The translations under genes and the position numbers were made by a program. Source: Chromatiales bacterium (lineage in GTDB: Bacteria > Pseudomonadota > Gammaproteobacteria > Thiohalomonadales > Thiohalomonadaceae). From it: DNA of 53,253 nucleotides. Shown here piece after piece: positions 23,484 to 42,726 of this stretch. The DNA lies in NCBI GenBank assembly GCA_003251535.1, contig QKFD01000051.1:1-53253 (forward strand), written 5' to 3'. Numbering within the stretch: the stretch's first letter is position 1; each line of letters starts with the position of its first letter. Below the pieces are notes generated by a model. The model made no database searches. It worked only from the letters and a program-made list of their open reading frames with translations, and was not told the origin of the DNA.

Positions 23484-23636
23484 CAGCGTGGGGTCGCGCG
23501 CAATAGGGGCATGGTTTGCATGGGAATCGGGCTACTTTGCCCGAAACTGGGCAGGATAAGCAAATAGTTAACAGTGCCCATGGGTGGAAGTGCGGAGTGG
23601 TGAACAGAAATGGCCCATTCATGGGCAATAGTGGTC

Positions 23637-23664
23637 AAAAAAAGACCGCGCCCGAGGACGCGGT
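23637..23664 (-). terminator. Intrinsic terminator
   Basis: Read on the minus strand, ACCGCG (23664-23659) pairs with CGCGGT (23650-23645) around an 8-base loop and is followed by CTTTTTTT (23644-23637). It ends a leftward transcript beginning to the right of 23664 and insulates the diguanylate cyclase gene. Confidence 0.8.
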
Positions 23665-23957
23665 GAACACACCACAGTGTAGAAGGAGGAGGAGATGGGG
23701 ATCATTCGAATCCCGTACTCCACGGCTGCCAGAGAGGGCAAGGGGTGTGCCAGGGCTAAAACCACTTACATACTGTGGATATGGTGGGCCCCATACAGCG
23801 ATAGCCGTGAGAAGTGGCAGGGGGTGACAGATGACTGTCATGTCACATCCTGTCAGCGGGTGAGGGGCCTCAAGGCTCAACGGGAGGGGTTGTAGCGAGA
23901 AGATCTCAGGGGGGTGTGATAGGGCCGTGGATGGGAGCGGTATCAGGATATTTTGAT
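23637..23957 (-). ncRNA. Candidate ~320-nt small RNA (minus strand)
   Basis: Inferred from signals only. On the minus strand TACAAT (23964-23969) with TTAGCA (23989-23994, 19-bp spacer) forms a possible sigma-70 promoter in an AT-rich stretch. About 320 bases downstream lies a textbook intrinsic terminator (hairpin 23645-23664, then T7). No good ORF on that strand has a ribosome-binding site. The spacer is longer than ideal, and the terminator could instead serve read-through from the ribbon-helix-helix gene upstream. Confidence 0.35.
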
Positions 23958-24105
23958 CTCCTTATTGTATGGTAAGGAAATTATTTTGTGCTAACCTTCT
24001 CTCCGTCTCGGGCTCGAATGGGCTACTGGTTGGAGTAGGCAGAGGGTGATCGTACCCCTCTGCTCCCCTCCTTATTGTCGAGAGCCGTGGTGGGATTCTT
24101 GGTGG

Positions 24106-24402
24106 TTACTGCCCTTCGAGGGGCTCCCCATGGGGGCTCAAGGCGACCCGTAGCTGGGCCGTTGTCTGTTCTAGTTGATCGAGTAGGGAGGCCACCGGCG
24201 AGGGGGGGACCGTGGGTTGCTCCGCTTCGAGTGAACCATGGAGTCGATGGAGGATTTCACCATGGAGTGAGCGCTTTTCTGCCCGGGCTGCCGCCTCCAA
24301 CCGGGCGCGTAGCTCTGGAGGGAGACGGAGCGGATAGGGCATATCGCGGGAGGGGGCGGTGCGCTCTGCGGAAGGGCGGGGGGGTCTATTCGATTTATCC
24401 AT
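24106..24402 (-). CDS. Arc-like ribbon-helix-helix protein
   Basis: A 98-residue protein with a central YPLRLPPELRARLEAAARAE.. followed by KRSLHGEILHRL (about residues 22-55), the Arc-type ribbon-helix-helix pattern: a short beta strand, then two helices with a Ser/Asn-type cap. The flanks are Pro/Ser-rich and charged; the C-terminal helix (LLDQLEQTTAQLRVAL) could drive dimerisation. Such proteins repress promoters, often their own, and some are antitoxins, but no toxin gene is adjacent. The ATG at 24402 follows CCGGAGC. It is alone in a sparsely coding region. Confidence 0.75.
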   Translation of the reverse strand: MDKSNRPPRPSAERTAPSRDMPYPLRLPPELRARLEAAARAEKRSLHGEILHRLHGSLEAEQPTVPPSPVASLLDQLEQTTAQLRVALSPHGEPLEGQ

Positions 24403-25623
24403 GGGGGACGGCTCCGGCAGGGAATTGTAAATAATCCAACGAGTCCAATTGACATCATTGGCGTGACGAATGAAAATGCAGTCCTGTGAATCCCTGCACT
24501 GGAGGTGGGGGATGACTGGGAGAGAGGCACCACCGCTGCGTTCGGTGGTGATAGAGCAAACGGAGTCGCGGGCTTGGAGGCATATCGTTTTCCTCTATGT
24601 ATCCCCATGGCTTGCCGCCCATGCGATATCTCCCTGGAACAGGGCAGGCTTCGCGGTGGCAAGGCCCTCCGCCGTGCGGCACCCTATCCTTCATGGTTGG
24701 GTAGCGAATTTCCCCTGATCCGATTCCGTAGTTCCTCTGACGCGCTGGGAGTAATTTAGCTGGATCCCGGGTGAATCACCTCCCTTCAAGGGGGGTCTGA
24801 TGAGGAAGATAAGGGGGAAATTAGAGTCTAAATTTTGATTGTTAAACGATATGGGATGGGGATATTTCAGATAGTGGAGCGTCAACGGGCGTGAGTGGGG
24901 GGAGTCCACTCTCCTCATTAATAGAGGGCTAAGGCGGGCGAGGGGATACCACTCCCACCCAGTGTCATGAGATAGCGACCCCGAATGGGCGGGCATCGGT
25001 GGGTTGGTGAGGGTCACAGGGATCACCATGCCCTTGTGGGCCGAGGCGGGGATGGGATATCTCCCGGGGGAGCGTATTCACCCACTCTATCGCCGCCACA
25101 TGACCGTCATGCTTGGTTGGCGGCGCCAAAGGGCGCACTCCCCATGGGCACCAGGGGACCACTGATAGGGATCGGTGGCAGAGCTGGGGCCAGCGATGTT
25201 CCCGGCGTGCTGAATGGCGAGGCCAACCGTTTGGGGTGTGAGAGACCACCATATTGGTGGGGATCGGATGAGAGGATTTTTGGGGGAGAGAGGGCGATCT
25301 CCTGTGGATAGTGGTCGCGTTGCCTCTGTGGAGGAGGCGGTTGGTGCTGCTGCTGTCCCTCCAGGGAGGCGCGGTATGGTCAGTTTAGGGAGGGCAGGCG
25401 CATGGTGGGCCGCCCTCAAGGCCAGGCTTAGCCGCTTTGACAGGCGCAGGGTGTGGTACGCGGGAGCTGGTACAGATCTCGGCAGTGAGGGTCGCAGTGA
25501 GGGAGGGGTGACATCGCACATTCCCTCTGGGGAGGGGCTTTCTCCCCACCTGTAAGAGGTCTTATCCAGGAGAGTGGTGGTGATGCAGGCCTGCTAGATC
25601 AATGGATAGATGAGGAGAGGGAG
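24403..25623. other. 1.2-kb gap without a supportable gene
   Basis: Several open frames of 80-160 codons cross here on both strands, but none combines a ribosome-binding site, start codon and protein-like composition. Local inverted repeats include CATGAC-C-GTCATG near 25100 and CACCATATTGGTG near 25248. The stretch around 24820-24870 is AT-rich compared with the window. It may be degraded sequence or unrecognised regulatory DNA. Confidence 0.4.
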
Positions 25624-25866
25624 ATGGCACTCGATGAGTTGAAGGGAGACGACTGGATGGTTCGCCAGCAGGTACAACAGGATCTGTTGGTGGCGCGATC
25701 TGTGGTGATGCGTTTGAAGTGTGGACAGTATGGTGAAGGGGATCTAGCGGCCTTCTTGGATTTCATCGTGCGGGCAGTGGAACACGCCGCCGAACTATTC
25801 GCCGAGGATATTGCCTTCCATGAGGGGCAAGGTCTCTACACCCTTCTACCGGAGTCAGGGGGGTAG
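25624..25866 (+). CDS. Small helical acidic protein, unknown
   Basis: An 80-residue protein with a strong GAGGAGAGGGAG site directly before its ATG at 25624. It has no Cys-rich, membrane or signal features. The sequence is mostly helical (MVRQQVQQDLLVARSVVMRL, FLDFIVRAVEHAAELFAEDI) with an acidic surface and a short polar tail ending LLPESGG. I do not recognise a family. It is isolated: nothing convincing lies within 1.2 kb upstream and about 400 bp downstream. The ribosome-binding site and the amphipathic helices are the reasons to accept it. Confidence 0.6.
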   Translation: MALDELKGDDWMVRQQVQQDLLVARSVVMRLKCGQYGEGDLAAFLDFIVRAVEHAAELFAEDIAFHEGQGLYTLLPESGG

Positions 25867-26282
25867 AGGAGGAGATGGAGGTAGCCAGCGCAAGATCCAG
25901 CAGAACCGCTGCTGGCCATACCGTGGTTTCTCTGGATGAGCTAACCAGGATGAGCGGGGTGGGTGAGGTGTTGCCGTGGGGTTAGGGATTGGTTGGGAAC
26001 AGCGCAGCGGTATTTTTGCGGTGTGGCGGGTTGGGGTACCCATCCCCTCGTCTCTAGCCTCCCGCTCGGCTGACTCGGCCGATTGCAACGGGTGGCAAAG
26101 GGGGGTTAAGCGGGGAGTAACCCCCTGGCACGGCTGGCAGCGCGACCGGGCCAGGGCATGGGGTCGGTGGCGGGTGTGTCCCAAGATTAAAAATCCCCTG
26201 GGCAGGGTAATGGGTGCCCTCTCTCCCACTGACCTAGCCAGGTGTTCCCTATCTATCAGTCAGCGTGGTGGTGCGGAGGGCG
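25867..26282. other. Gap with one stable hairpin
   Basis: No supportable gene in about 415 bp. An inverted repeat GGGGGTTA (26101-26108) / TAACCCCC (26118-26125) forms an 8-bp stem without a U-tract. A 163-codon plus-strand frame (25976-26467) runs into the antisense of the next gene and is rejected. Confidence 0.4.
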
Positions 26283-26990
26283 TTAGGCCGAGGTACTGGC
26301 CCCTTTGGTCTTGGATTTTGGGCTGCTGGTGCGGCTCTTGGTGCGGGTGGGGCGCGCCTCGCCCATCTCCCGTTGCCAAGGAACTAGCGTCAAACCGCTT
26401 CCTTGGACCTGGACTCCAAGGATCTCCGACTCTTTCTCCTTGGCCTGGCGGAAGGCGGCATGGCTGACCACTGAGCCATCGAAGATCGCCGCGATCTGGA
26501 TCGGATTGCCACTTGGGTGACTATGGCGGCGGCTGCTCCAGACGATAGCCCCTACATGGGGGGTGACAGGTCCGTGGACCAGTTCGGCCATGGCTTCAGG
26601 ATGTTCATCTAGAAACTCATCCAGAGAACGTTTTCCGATCCCCAACTGTTTCTTTACGGTATTCTGCGCGGCGACATTGAGGGTCTTGGTGCTGAGCAGA
26701 CTGATCTGGGATAGGTCATCTGGCCCGAGACCATGGACCGCGGGGGTCACCACTAAGCGTTGATGAAAGGTCTCCGCGGGGATGTAGCGCAGAAATAGAA
26801 ATATGATCTGGACCCGATTGATTTCAGACGGGCCGTAGTGGAGTAGAACATCTTGCAGTACTAGCCGGCTATCGGCGCGGCCGGAGGTGAGGAGCAGTAG
26901 CGCTCCGGGTGGGGTGCAGTCAAAGCCGCTGGGCAAGACTGGTTGGAGCGCAGTATCCCCATCCAAGTGAAAGGAGCGCAGTACTAGCAT
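26283..26990 (-). CDS. Unrecognised protein with basic disordered tail, divergent from 27104 gene
   Basis: A 235-residue protein with a good AGGGAGAA site before the ATG at 26990. The N-terminal 200 residues look like a folded domain (LLLLTSGRADSRLVLQDVLL, INRVQIIFLFLRYIPAETFH, KKQLGIGKRSLDEFLDEHPE, GNPIQIAAIFDGSVVSHAAF). The last ~25 residues are a Lys/Arg/Ser/Thr-rich tail (RPTRTKSRTSSPKSKTKG). It has no membrane segment or signal peptide. I do not recognise the family. The tail suggests nucleic-acid or partner binding. It shares a 113-bp divergent promoter region with the next gene, which also has basic disordered ends, so the two may work together. Confidence 0.72.
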   Translation of the reverse strand: MLVLRSFHLDGDTALQPVLPSGFDCTPPGALLLLTSGRADSRLVLQDVLLHYGPSEINRVQIIFLFLRYIPAETFHQRLVVTPAVHGLGPDDLSQISLLSTKTLNVAAQNTVKKQLGIGKRSLDEFLDEHPEAMAELVHGPVTPHVGAIVWSSRRHSHPSGNPIQIAAIFDGSVVSHAAFRQAKEKESEILGVQVQGSGLTLVPWQREMGEARPTRTKSRTSSPKSKTKGASTSA

Positions 26991-27103
26991 AAACTTCTCC
27001 CTGGTTGATAATATAGAAATTCCAATCGGCGCGAATATAGCAAGAATGGCCGGGTTTAGGAATCGGGTTTTTGTGACAGAATCGACGGGATGCGAGGAGA
27101 CTC

Positions 27104-28033
27104 ATGAAAAAATTTGCGTTGGCGGCCCACGAGAGCGACGGCGAGAGTAAGCGACGCGAGCCGAGTGGAGAGGCGGGGCAAGAGCGGCGTAAGCGGCGTA
27201 GTAGTATTGTGATTCCGTTTGAGGGGGCCTCCCCTGCGGAGCGTCGAGACTACTTCTACAAGATGGCGGGTGCTGACGCTGATAAGGTCCGTTCCATGTT
27301 TGAAGGGGCCATGCAGCGCATCCCAGAGCGCTCTCTGCGGTTTGGGGCCGAGCCGATGATCGGCGGCGATGTGCGTCGCCTGGCAGGGGTCGCCGGCCAC
27401 CGCACCGAGATGGATACCGCTTGGGTCATGGGGGTCCACCCCTATCAGCGAACCGACTTCCGCAGTGCCACCAAAGTGGAGCTGAAAGAGCCAGATCGAG
27501 CCATCCTCATCCGCTACATCCTCGGTTTTCCCGACCGCGATATCCTGCCCAAGCTACCGGATGCACAGACGACCTACGATAAGGTTGCGGCCATCTGGCC
27601 GCGGATCTTGCCCTACTCACGGGGGGAAGAGCTGAATCCTAAGACCTTTGCCATTCTCTGTGGTTATAACGGCGCCAATGGCTACCGTTGGTTGAGTCGC
27701 AATGGTAAACCGGGTCCCCTCTCCTACCGCGTGTTTTATGTCTTGTGCGATGCCATCGATCACTACGGCGAAAATGGGCTGCGCGACTATCTGAGCGTCC
27801 TAGAGTCGGAGGCCTACTCCCGTTTAGGGGTACCGCTTGAGGTCATCTTCGATGCCGGCGGCTGGTCAGTTGTGGTGTTGGAGCAGTACGTCAAGCAGCT
27901 GGCTGCGGGCGGTAAGCGGCGGCGGCGGCGTACTAGCCGCTCAACCACCTCAGAGGGGGAGGCGGAGGTGGTCTCTACACGGGTAACCTCTCCGCCGGCC
28001 AAGGCCGGTGGGGCGCGTCGGCAGAAGGGGTGA
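27104..28033 (+). CDS. Unrecognised protein with basic tails, divergent from 26990 gene
   Basis: A 309-residue protein starting at the ATG at 27104 behind GAGGAGA. Residues 1-40 are charged and basic (KRREPSGEAGQERRKRRSS); the core (about 45-265) is rich in aromatic residues (YFYKMAGADADKVRSMFEGA, DTAWVMGVHPYQRTDF, FAILCGYNGANGYRWLSRNG, VFYVLCDAIDHYGENGL); the C-terminus is another basic tail (KRRRRRTSRS). The segment ILCGYNGANGYRWLSRNGKP could be a helix-turn-helix-like element but I cannot prove it. No family is recognised. The coding signal is strong (long single frame, clear start). The divergent neighbour has a similar basic end. Confidence 0.78.
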   Translation: MKKFALAAHESDGESKRREPSGEAGQERRKRRSSIVIPFEGASPAERRDYFYKMAGADADKVRSMFEGAMQRIPERSLRFGAEPMIGGDVRRLAGVAGHRTEMDTAWVMGVHPYQRTDFRSATKVELKEPDRAILIRYILGFPDRDILPKLPDAQTTYDKVAAIWPRILPYSRGEELNPKTFAILCGYNGANGYRWLSRNGKPGPLSYRVFYVLCDAIDHYGENGLRDYLSVLESEAYSRLGVPLEVIFDAGGWSVVVLEQYVKQLAAGGKRRRRRTSRSTTSEGEAEVVSTRVTSPPAKAGGARRQKG

Positions 28034-28195
28034 AGAGGGCACCACTGGGGGCCTACTTCTCAAGTGGGCAGACTCCGTAAGACCACCGGTGGGCGGCGGT
28101 GTAGCAGGATGGTGTACTGCTATACCTCGCCCTGGCGGGTGGGCGTGTCGCCTAACAACTGCACAGGTGATCGTGCGGAGCTGCCCACGTTGGGG

Positions 28196-28531
28196 CTAAC
28201 GATCTTGGCAGAGCGAGAGATCTCGGAAAAAGGCGACCACTCGTGGACTCTGTTGGAAGCGCGCCATCAGATCGCCGCTAGTGTGGCTACCGGTATGGGC
28301 GATGAACTCCCGCATGAGGCTAACCTCTTCGCTGTTGTAGTGGTTCTGTGCGAATAGCTCACGGGTACAGGTCGTTGTTTTCTCTTTGAACGCCTGTTCA
28401 TTTTGGGCCTTGACGCCGCTACCATGGGTGCTGGCACTGACCAGCTCGGTAGCCACACGGTCGGCGTCCGCGTCTGCAGCAAGGAGGGGCGAGGAGGCGA
28501 TAAGGCCTGCGACCAGCAGCACGATTCTCAT
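28196..28531 (-). CDS. Exported hypothetical protein
   Basis: A 111-residue protein started at the ATG at 28531, nine bases after AAGGAA. It has a signal peptide (MRIVLLVAGLIASSPLLAAD) and a small mature domain with two Cys (TTCTREL and LSLCQDR) that could form a disulfide in the periplasm. The remainder is helical and charged (VSLMREFIAHTGSHTSGDLM). A longer in-frame start at 28627 precedes the signal with a basic stretch and lacks a ribosome-binding site. No family recognised. Confidence 0.72.
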   Translation of the reverse strand: MRIVLLVAGLIASSPLLAADADADRVATELVSASTHGSGVKAQNEQAFKEKTTTCTRELFAQNHYNSEEVSLMREFIAHTGSHTSGDLMARFQQSPRVVAFFRDLSLCQDR

Positions 28532-28715
28532 TTTTTGATATTCCTTGTTGTTGCTCCGCTTTTGCGGTGAGCGGGATAGTACCGCAAAACCCAGGGGGAG
28601 CTTGCAAGCACTGTCGCGCAACTGCAAAAAATGGTGTAGACCTCACTACGCCACGACCATTTGACCAATGACCGTGATCCGTGGTCGCAGCCGGCCTGTT
28701 CGCCAGCCCGTTGAT

Positions 28716-29336
28716 TTACCCCGGTCGGGGCCAGCGTGGGAGTGTGATCAGGCGGTCGCGGCTGCTGCCACGGCGCTTGATCAGGTGCAGCTCTAGGGCG
28801 TCGGCCTGCGCTCTTAGTACGAGGCGCAAGGCGGCGGGGGAGGGGTGGTGTTGCGCGCTGTGAGGGCGGTAGATCAGCGCCGCCGCCCGGCCCGCCTCGG
28901 CAGCGAGTTGTAACCGCCGCAGGGCGACAAACTCTACCTTTTGTAGCCAGCCGAGGGCCGCCCCACACACCCCGGAGCGTAGCGACTGCTCCAGTGCCCA
29001 GAGCATCTCCCGCTCACTCTTGCACTCCGCTACCACTACATGGGATAGATCCAGGCCCGCCTGGGCCAACGCCGGGGCGTAGGGGATATGGGGCGGGGCG
29101 ATGAAGATGACCCAGCGCCCGCTGCGGGTTAGCCTGGCTAGGCTCGGTAGCAGGAGTGAGAGTTCGCCGATACCGCTGTGGTCGGTGAGCAGTTCGCTGA
29201 CTGCGCCCAAGGGCCAGCCACCCCCTAGTGCGCTATCAAGGGTGGCGTGGCCAGTGGCGAGGGTGGGGTGCGCGGCTGATGGCGGTTGGCCACCACGCCA
29301 GAGATCGGGACGTTGGAGCAGGGTGTCGAGCTGCAT
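28716..29336 (-). CDS. imuA: ImuA-like SOS mutagenesis protein (orphan)
   Basis: A 206-residue RecA/SulA-related protein: LATGHATLDSALGGGWPLGA.. then VSELLTDHSGIGELSLLLP, IFIAPPHIPYAPALAQAGLD, LWALEQSLRSGVCGAALGW and LRRLQLAAEAGRAAALIYRP. These are the conserved blocks of ImuA, which with ImuB and DnaE2 performs damage-induced mutagenesis in many bacteria. The Walker-A region is degenerate, as usual in ImuA. Neither imuB nor dnaE2 follows; the next gene on this strand is an unrelated exported protein. The ribosome-binding site before the ATG at 29336 is weak. SulA-type division inhibitors are distant relatives, so the role is not certain. Confidence 0.8.
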   Translation of the reverse strand: MQLDTLLQRPDLWRGGQPPSAAHPTLATGHATLDSALGGGWPLGAVSELLTDHSGIGELSLLLPSLARLTRSGRWVIFIAPPHIPYAPALAQAGLDLSHVVVAECKSEREMLWALEQSLRSGVCGAALGWLQKVEFVALRRLQLAAEAGRAAALIYRPHSAQHHPSPAALRLVLRAQADALELHLIKRRGSSRDRLITLPRWPRPG

Positions 29337-41946: not shown

Positions 41947-41975
41947 TTGCGCTGTGGCCCAATGCCTCTTATAAT
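41947..41975 (+). promoter_or_regulatory. Sigma-70 promoter for riboswitch-controlled Mn exporter
   Basis: TTGCGC (41947-41952) and a perfect TATAAT (41970-41975) with a 17-bp spacer lie directly upstream of the yybP-ykoY element, placing the transcription start at about 41981. Spacing and position are ideal, and the transcript would begin exactly with the riboswitch. Confidence 0.85.
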
Positions 41976-41979
41976 CGGC

Positions 41980-42091
41980 GCCGCTCTTAGGGGAGTAGTC
42001 GCCCCCGCCGCGGCGGGGGGCGCGCGTCAACACCCTTGGCCGGCAGGCCATGGCGCGTGCGGCAACTGCGCTTGACGAGACCTATGGCACG
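41980..42091 (+). promoter_or_regulatory. yybP-ykoY manganese riboswitch
   Basis: The segment carries the conserved motifs of this class in order: TTAGGGGAGTAG (41988-41999), GTCAACAC (42026-42033) and CGAGACCTATGGC (42076-42088). The class binds Mn2+ and turns on Mn-efflux genes; the next gene is a GDT1/TMEM165-type exporter, which agrees. Its 3' strand TATGGCACG (42083-42091) is also perfectly complementary to CGTGCCATA (42122-42130), which covers the start codon's A. So without Mn the start could be hidden, and with Mn the aptamer would take up that strand and free it. This switch logic is my inference. Confidence 0.88.
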
Positions 42092-42129
42092 TATCCCTAC
42101 TGTCCCGGGGCGGGGGAGGGGCGTGCCAT

Positions 42130-42726
42130 ATGGCCAACGTCCCCGCCCCTGAGATCTCAGCCTTGGAATCCCTACTCGTCTCTACTACCTCCGTTGCCAT
42201 CGCCGAGATCGGTGACAAGACCCAGCTCCTGGCGCTTCTGCTCGCCTGTCGCTTCCGCCGACCGTGGCCCATCATCCTGGGCATCCTGTTCGCTACCTTG
42301 GCCAACCACGCCCTGGCGGCAGGGGTTGGGGTGTGGCTCGCCTCGCTGCTGGGGCCGGAACTCCTGCGGGGGGTCTTGGCGGTGGCATTTATCGCCATGG
42401 GGCTGTGGATCCTGGTCCCCGACAAAGAGGAGGACGCCGCTGCGCAGTACCGTTTTGGCGCCTTCCTTACCACGCTCATCGCCTTCTTCCTGGTGGAGAT
42501 GGGAGATAAGACCCAGGTGGCGACGGTGGTATTGGCGGCCAACTACAGCAATCTCCCACTGGTGGTGCTGGGCACCACGCTCGGCATGTTGGCGGCCAAT
42601 GTACCGGTGGTCCTGGCGGGTGGCATGGCGGCGCAGAAGTTACCGCTCACCCTCATCCGGCGGGTGGCGGCGGCGCTGTTTTTGCTGCTCGGGGGGGCAG
42701 TTGCCCTCGGTTACGGCGGCGCCTAG
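42130..42726 (+). CDS. GDT1/TMEM165 (UPF0016) family manganese exporter
   Basis: A 198-residue inner-membrane protein with two homologous halves, each carrying the family hallmark E-x-G-D-K-T: AIAEIGDKTQLLALLL and FLVEMGDKTQVATVVL. About six TM segments are predicted. Family members export Mn2+ (and in eukaryotes Ca2+/Mn2+). The upstream Mn-sensing riboswitch and perfect sigma-70 promoter strongly support Mn efflux. The ribosome-binding site GGGGGAGGGG (42112-42121) lies in the loop of the hairpin that can hide the start. The start at 42130 agrees with that geometry. Confidence 0.93.
   Translation: MANVPAPEISALESLLVSTTSVAIAEIGDKTQLLALLLACRFRRPWPIILGILFATLANHALAAGVGVWLASLLGPELLRGVLAVAFIAMGLWILVPDKEEDAAAQYRFGAFLTTLIAFFLVEMGDKTQVATVVLAANYSNLPLVVLGTTLGMLAANVPVVLAGGMAAQKLPLTLIRRVAAALFLLLGGAVALGYGGA

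Follow-up and report, generated by a model that had tools for sequence, protein, structure and literature searches.

The locus raises the question of what two adjoining, divergently transcribed genes of no recognised family might do for the genome that carries them. The window analysed here is one complete contig of 53,253 bp, taken from an assembly of 4.6 Mb. The two genes, called A and B below (Table 1), are probably an isolated divergent copy of a widespread unnamed plasmid gene pair with a regulatory role, and the more useful discovery is the module itself rather than the window copy.

Table 1. Features of the A/B locus in window coordinates
Feature	Coordinates	Strand	Description	Basis
Gene A	26283..26990	-	235 aa, ATG start; probable divergent member of the unnamed A family	ORF and coding bias
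Segment of A aligning with the plasmid A family	26463..26732	-	residues 87-176	hhalign
Divergent intergenic region	26991..27103	.	113 bp; presumed shared promoter/operator	sequence
Gene B	27104..28033	+	309 aa, ATG start; unnamed B family (plasmid proteins); basic N- and C-terminal tails	
First repeat of B	27353..27544	+	about residues 84-147; HTH-like by family; approximate borders	family alignments and repeat test
Second repeat of B	27545..27769	+	about residues 148-222; HTH-like by family; approximate borders	family alignments and repeat test

A and B are genuine genes. The first-pass annotation had described genes of 235 aa and 309 aa, divergent across 113 bp and both with good ribosome-binding sites; the coordinates and ATG starts were confirmed, with GGGAG ending 6 bases 5' of the ATG of A and GAGGAG ending 4 bases 5' of that of B. 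Coding scores per codon, for which codon usage was trained on 27 other long window ORFs of our choosing, were +0.13 (A) and +0.15 (B) in the annotated frame and negative in the other five frames for each gene. In a control of 300 random 5.1-kb sequences matched for GC content, four had a longest ATG ORF of at least 235 aa and none had one of 309 aa or more. Basic ends had been noted for both proteins; Lys/Arg/Ser-rich tails are indeed present at both ends of B, but in A at the C-terminus only. In the 113-bp gap, a promoter scan found no sigma-70 consensus, and exact inverted repeats (arms of 5-9 bp, loop of 0-11 bp) were absent; 7-bp direct repeats at 27010/27034 and 27051/27064 were not taken as beyond chance.

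The view that neither protein belongs to a recognised family was borne out. Nothing above cut-off was obtained for A or B in Pfam or NCBIfam, nor any match at E 1 in PHROGs or PADLOC, and the best sub-threshold family matches (RecA_C for A, E 0.14; a bacteriocin model for B, E 0.084) are at chance level. Similarly, when 37 A/B members, the window's included, were compared with Pfam, none exceeded a family cut-off among the matches listed, and none of 9 A/B proteins was above cut-off in NCBIfam.

Relatives of B were found mainly on plasmids. A tblastn search with window B matched two Acidovorax plasmids (E 5e-5) and, at E 4.2e-4, an ORF of the same-family genome G018; in each case the B-like gene diverges from a neighbour encoding 214 or 254 aa. 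The G018 and Methylibium B proteins, used as queries, matched 36 and 51 plasmid records, respectively, from which 13 and a further 8 were chosen by us and, together with two genome loci, make up the 23 B loci considered below. The first B profile (11 rows) contained neither window B nor two Shewanella proteins and one Alteromonas protein, which were added to the second profile. It found window B at E 6.8e-11 among 2475 ORFs and recovered three B proteins outside it at E 2.6e-29, 8.1e-26, and 5.7e-21. With hhalign, window B matched the wider B profile with a probability of 97.2% (E 3.2e-11) in an alignment spanning both repeats. On these profile matches, window B is placed firmly in an unnamed family of plasmid proteins. 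The B of one Shewanella xiamenensis plasmid (L013 5944-9099) forms the N-terminal part of a 1051-aa protein, which was trimmed to its first 260 residues for the second profile. A Thalassospira plasmid has, besides its B, another weakly matching B-like ORF (L020 1890-3059, minus strand; E 2.1e-5 and 0.0036 by the first and second profiles, respectively).

Outside plasmids, the first B profile matched 2 of 56 genomes of relatives, 2 of 369 at class level, and 1 of 398 at phylum level, counts that each include the window's own genome and come from overlapping sets, suggesting that B copies are rare in the sampled genomes. A scan of genome contigs with window B returned nothing, and one with a Methylibium-Acidovorax B alignment returned a single locus, in Piscinibacter caeni (L038), whose B is identical to that of Methylibium; this locus duplicates Methylibium L012 and stands outside the 23. 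Weak B matches in genomes G254, G276, and G327 were dropped, as the B profile gave no confirmation on longer stretches. No relative turned up in viral contigs when these were scanned with the A and B proteins of the window or with the A proteins of G018 and Methylibium, and a partial viral-contig match (L039) to a P. aeruginosa A query was unsupported by the A profile.

The B family contains an internal duplication: the two halves of its alignment match each other at P 1.3e-4; the score is 23.0, and 100 column shuffles gave at most 16.5. The Pfam model HTH_31 (PF13560) matched 5 of 19 B members, all below the gathering cut-off of 27 bits (best E 6.8e-5, 23.5 bits), and window B itself had no HTH match in Pfam. 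Where shown, the best HTH_31 stretch falls in the first repeat in three proteins and in the second in the Bordetella protein, and pG69 B has two such stretches. In addition, there are weak alignments (E 0.08-0.3) of the first repeat with PezA and of the second with the MqsA HTH. Comparisons of the B halves with two annotated plasmid HTH proteins stayed at shuffle level; the R64 HTH protein scored 16.6 with the first half against a best of 16.1 in 100 shuffles, and the remaining three comparisons fell below their best shuffles. The natural reading is that B proteins would be tandem Xre-like helix-turn-helix proteins, and DNA binding by B is suggested by this tandem HTH-like core of the family. 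Nucleic-acid binding by one or both proteins had earlier been proposed from the basic tails; a DNA-binding member is indeed likely, but on the basis of the core of the B family and not of the tails.

The genes that adjoin B on plasmids form a second unnamed family, A. In a phmmer search of 14 proteins, nine other members of the first A profile matched G018 A at E 1.7e-5 or better; the Alteromonas A and two candidates did not. These two candidates (AcavA1 and one from Vogesella), chosen by position, matched no other A protein and were removed. The first A profile had 10 rows, with Alteromonas left out until the second. A search with this 10-row profile recovered the gene just 3' of B on another seven plasmids (E 1e-16 to 8e-20) and, more weakly, on an Enterobacter plasmid (E 0.0041). 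A adjoins B in 18 of the 23 B loci, 9 times divergently as in the window and 9 times in tandem with B first, a count in which the places of Alteromonas (0.067) and Enterobacter (0.0041) are partly circular because their A proteins were weak before inclusion. A thus accompanies B in two arrangements. The other 5 loci have no adjacent A: in Aeromonas it lies elsewhere on the plasmid, and in the whole plasmid records of pF023, Vogesella, and P. koreensis p2, as well as in genome G318, no A was detected at E 0.01.

With pG69 queries, 57 plasmid records matched B and 40 matched A, and all 40 were among the 57 when compared by eye. Two loci examined later with fixed profiles, in one set of 8 proteins, also carry both genes, namely Salmonella pRSE24 (tandem, A at E 3.9e-30) and PP438435 (divergent, A at E 1.1e-15). 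The latter is a 209-kb record named 'Dolichospermum phage Dfl-JY45' (L073), which is possibly a plasmid or a phage-plasmid. On pG69, where the pair is tandem, the B and A genes share 14 bp. A and B are partners in a linked two-gene module, and the adjacency in the window, divergent across 113 bp, matches this module, provided that window A is a member. Co-occurrence in the same divergent order, proposed earlier as a check, was found in 9 of the 23 other B loci and in one examined later; homologues do co-occur, and no named family was found for them.

The hosts of the module are large plasmids, with records from alpha-, beta-, and gammaproteobacteria. The pair, or B, lies near traJ, icmT/traK, DotC/DotD, or DotD/TraH genes on some plasmids and beside DotM/IcmP and TraM-recognition genes at other loci, with DotA/TraY also among the nearby genes. 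All eight plasmids recovered with the 10-row A profile (the seven above and Enterobacter) have traJ, icmT/traK, or DotD/TraH nearby, and three of them (pG69, pGRT1, and pMPC6-328K) are typed MPF_I. In the fetched stretches of pPALA50, P. mendocina pPME5, and Aeromonas, transfer genes are unannotated beside the pair or B. MOB-suite typing differed between queries: 33 of 36 G018-query records were non-mobilizable, the 51 Methylibium-query records comprised 24 conjugative, 15 non-mobilizable, and 12 mobilizable ones, and 36 of 57 pG69-B records were conjugative. Contig C42 of G018 (L008, 243 kb) carries an A/B pair together with ParM-like, coupling-protein-like, and TraU/DotO-like genes, as well as ORFs that we read as pilus and primase genes, and is likely a type IVB plasmid or integrative element. 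On Methylibium RPME01 (L012 5599-7727), A adjoins the gene of a Y-family DNA polymerase, and umuD is nearby; this polymerase near RPME01 A and the ImuA-type gene near window B (see below) are possibly a coincidence.

On balance, the reading somewhat favoured here is that the window pair is a chromosomal orphan of a plasmid two-protein regulator module, in which B would bind DNA and A would modulate it. The module otherwise appears mainly on large plasmids, many of them with a type IVB (MPF_I, Dot/Icm-like) transfer system. B would be a DNA-binding protein acting through its two tandem Xre-like HTH repeats, A would be its dedicated partner, probably acting by binding B in a complex, and on plasmids the pair would most likely control transfer or other backbone genes. 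The 113-bp gap of the window would be a likely autoregulated operator. We infer this regulatory role, with operator binding by B and modulation by A, from domain type, linkage, and context. Mixed mobility typing and the stretches in which transfer genes are unannotated also leave room for targets outside transfer.

Plasmid backbones have other functions as well, and the pair might serve plasmid maintenance (partition or replication control), supplying DNA-binding or adaptor functions to a segregation module of ParM type. A ParM/StbA-type gene is found within a few kb of A or B in G018, both Shewanella plasmids, Alteromonas, Vogesella, and Aeromonas, and many of the G018-query plasmids are, as mentioned, non-mobilizable; however, eight plasmid stretches have traJ, icmT/traK, DotD/TraH, or relaxase-like genes with ParM unannotated, and no ParM-like gene was found among the Pfam-scanned window proteins. 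Maintenance is considered unlikely.

The surroundings of the window pair bear on whether it is still a working unit. The window encodes lumazine-binding, LeuA-type, M20 peptidase, D-Ala-D-Ala carboxypeptidase, and adenine deaminase-type proteins (Pfam) and a tRNA-Gln; it looks chromosomal, with housekeeping-like flanking genes. A manganese riboswitch (yybP-ykoY) is present at 41959-42144 on the plus strand (59.7 bits). The stretch around the pair, described earlier as poor in genes, is sparse but not empty, as it contains small ORFs at 25624-25866 and 28196-28528 and an Arc-type ribbon-helix-helix ORF at 24106-24402 on the minus strand (Pfam Arc, E 4.6e-7; coding score about 0). Beside the pair lies a SulA/RecA-like (ImuA-type) gene (28716-29336, minus strand) with no adjoining polymerase-like or LexA-like ORF; at a relative's locus (L069), the ImuA-type homologue sits, by our reading of the sequence, between LexA-like and ImuB-like ORFs. 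An ImuA-type gene occurs in 6 of 20 same-family genomes, the window's own included, and ten other window proteins tested against the five other ImuA-type loci gave no match, so that an insertion of the pair is not demonstrable by this comparison. No convincing flanking repeat was found at the island borders, and a blastn search of plasmids with the stretch 23600-28700 was negative.

No transfer gene was found near the window pair, and the two type IVB proteins searched for in the source assembly, a DotL/TrbC-like protein and TraU/DotO, were unmatched at E 1e-3. In G018, used as a same-family control, both are present on the contig bearing its A/B pair. With a chromosomal window and these two conserved proteins unmatched, the pair looks like an orphan copy, away from the plasmid machinery that often adjoins it; as the assembly is 95.6% complete in 130 contigs, transfer genes may be absent merely from the assembly. 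The first-pass annotation had singled the locus out as the window's best candidate for an undescribed system. For this copy such a label goes too far, and what stands of it is a linked, uncharacterised two-gene unit, present in the window as a copy of a broad plasmid module with two conjugation proteins unmatched.

The unmatched type IVB proteins would make the window pair either a remnant or a domesticated regulator. Decay to a remnant without present function would fit these missing matches, the gene-poor flanks, and the very divergent sequences; but neither reading frame is broken, both genes show coding bias and have plausible ribosome-binding sites, and decay is judged rather unlikely, slightly more so than maintenance.

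For family membership of window A the evidence is weaker than for B. BLASTP with window A gave no match, and hmmsearch gave non-significant scores of -1.4 and -0.2 bits. Against an A profile, window A obtained an hhalign score of 23.5, reached by none of 20 other window ORFs (maximum 17.9), none of 114 unrelated ORFs (maximum 18.5; a mechanically called set, 180-300 aa in length, in which some ORFs are not genes), and 0 of 200 and 1 of 800 shuffles. Once two later-found A members were added, the score rose to 30.2 against a 21-row A profile without the window (P 5.9e-4), a value reached by none of 1000 shuffles (maximum 23.4) or of the 114 unrelated ORFs (maximum 18.8). The alignment is colinear over 88 columns, and the hhalign probability was 28.9% at best, after 2.4% and 4.9% in earlier comparisons that aligned an overlapping block. 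In a leave-one-out comparison of four A members, the Alteromonas protein, which diverges most, was almost as difficult to detect as window A, with a probability of 21.3% (P 0.001), and the other three obtained 92-96%. Window A against the phage-record A alone gave a null result (P 0.47, hhalign), and AlphaFold models made with no alignment were too poor for use (mean pLDDT 38.2 for window A and 41.5 for the L038 plasmid A). From the profile-profile result together with its position, window A is very probably a divergent member of the A family. That it is instead unrelated and lies divergent from an orphan B homologue by chance would agree with the non-significant pairwise and HMMER matches, but not with a profile-profile score unmatched by 1000 shuffles and 114 ORFs, which increased as the profile grew, nor with the same divergent position being held by A in 10 other loci; chance is an improbable explanation.

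A toxin-antitoxin unit, with the HTH protein B as antitoxin and A as toxin, is very improbable: a small two-gene module with an HTH-like protein, the 14-bp gene overlap of the tandem pG69 form, and the faint resemblance between the MqsA HTH and the second repeat of B would suit it, but A members have no meaningful toxin-family score (one GnsAB match, E 0.19), 9 of the 18 linked loci are divergent and not a single operon, and three whole plasmid records carry B with A undetected.

Taken as a regulator, the module has a wider interest. For type IVB conjugative plasmids, which disseminate accessory genes across many bacteria, published regulators were found in only a few cases; a module seen on dozens of plasmids is a candidate regulator that can be tested directly. 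The isolated chromosomal copy raises the question of host reuse of plasmid regulators, possibly against plasmids. In a bolder version, which is speculative and probably goes too far, a host chromosome would have captured and kept the plasmid regulator pair, which would act in trans, either by fertility inhibition or as a regulator redirected to host genes, and the A/B module would represent a hitherto undescribed regulatory system for the conjugative plasmids of several classes of Pseudomonadota. If the fertility-inhibition version were true, the pair would repress transfer genes of incoming related plasmids.

Several known systems invite comparison. TraB and TraC are regulators of R64 (IncI1), an MPF_I plasmid in which a NusG-family protein is annotated next to TraC. 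The complete R64 record had no match to A or B at E 0.01, and an identity of B and A with IncI1 TraB and TraC was therefore rejected. A search of the open-access literature on type IVB/IncI1 regulators and pGRT1 found no description of the pair, and six accessions, five for A or B proteins, drawn from the loci of pG69, pGRT1, and Methylibium, appeared in none of the open-access papers searched; since the subscription literature lay mostly outside the search, "undescribed" here refers to the open-access papers searched. The pair is likewise undescribed in the portions seen of PMC6112013, PMC11826091, PMC5424326 (pPT23A family), and PMC10488154 (pPPUT-Tik1-1/pGRT1 group).

On pCTX-M3 (IncM), Orf35 and Orf36 are putative regulators of the type IVB transfer operon, and Orf35 (121 aa) resembles YggA of R64, according to excerpts of PMC6112013. 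Like the proposed A/B pair, they are two putative regulators, but R64, the plasmid of YggA, has no A or B match. MtvT/MtvA of pPAD8, as given in excerpts of PMC11826091, is a two-protein unit reported to repress the dot/icm genes of a Pseudomonas plasmid by DNA binding; its MtvA is described as MazE-like. For Orf35/Orf36 as for MtvTA, the comparison with A/B is one of published descriptions, and both candidates were set aside.

The likeness is direct for annotated but unnamed plasmid proteins. WP_172693390/WP_172693391 of pG69 and WP_009682497/WP_228409401 of pGRT1, hypothetical proteins of MPF_I plasmids, are a B with an adjacent A, as in the window; their genes are tandem, overlapping in the order B-A, and next to icmT and traJ, whereas the window pair is divergent, and B has 177 aa in this type of pair against 309 aa in the window. 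RPME01 (Methylibium), pACP3.1 (Acidovorax), and C42 of G018 share with the window both the divergent arrangement and the basic C-terminal tail of B. Unlike the window pair, these pairs reside on a plasmid or plasmid-like contig with type IVB genes, and in the family alignments their proteins are 20-25% (B) and 13-20% (A) identical to those of the window.
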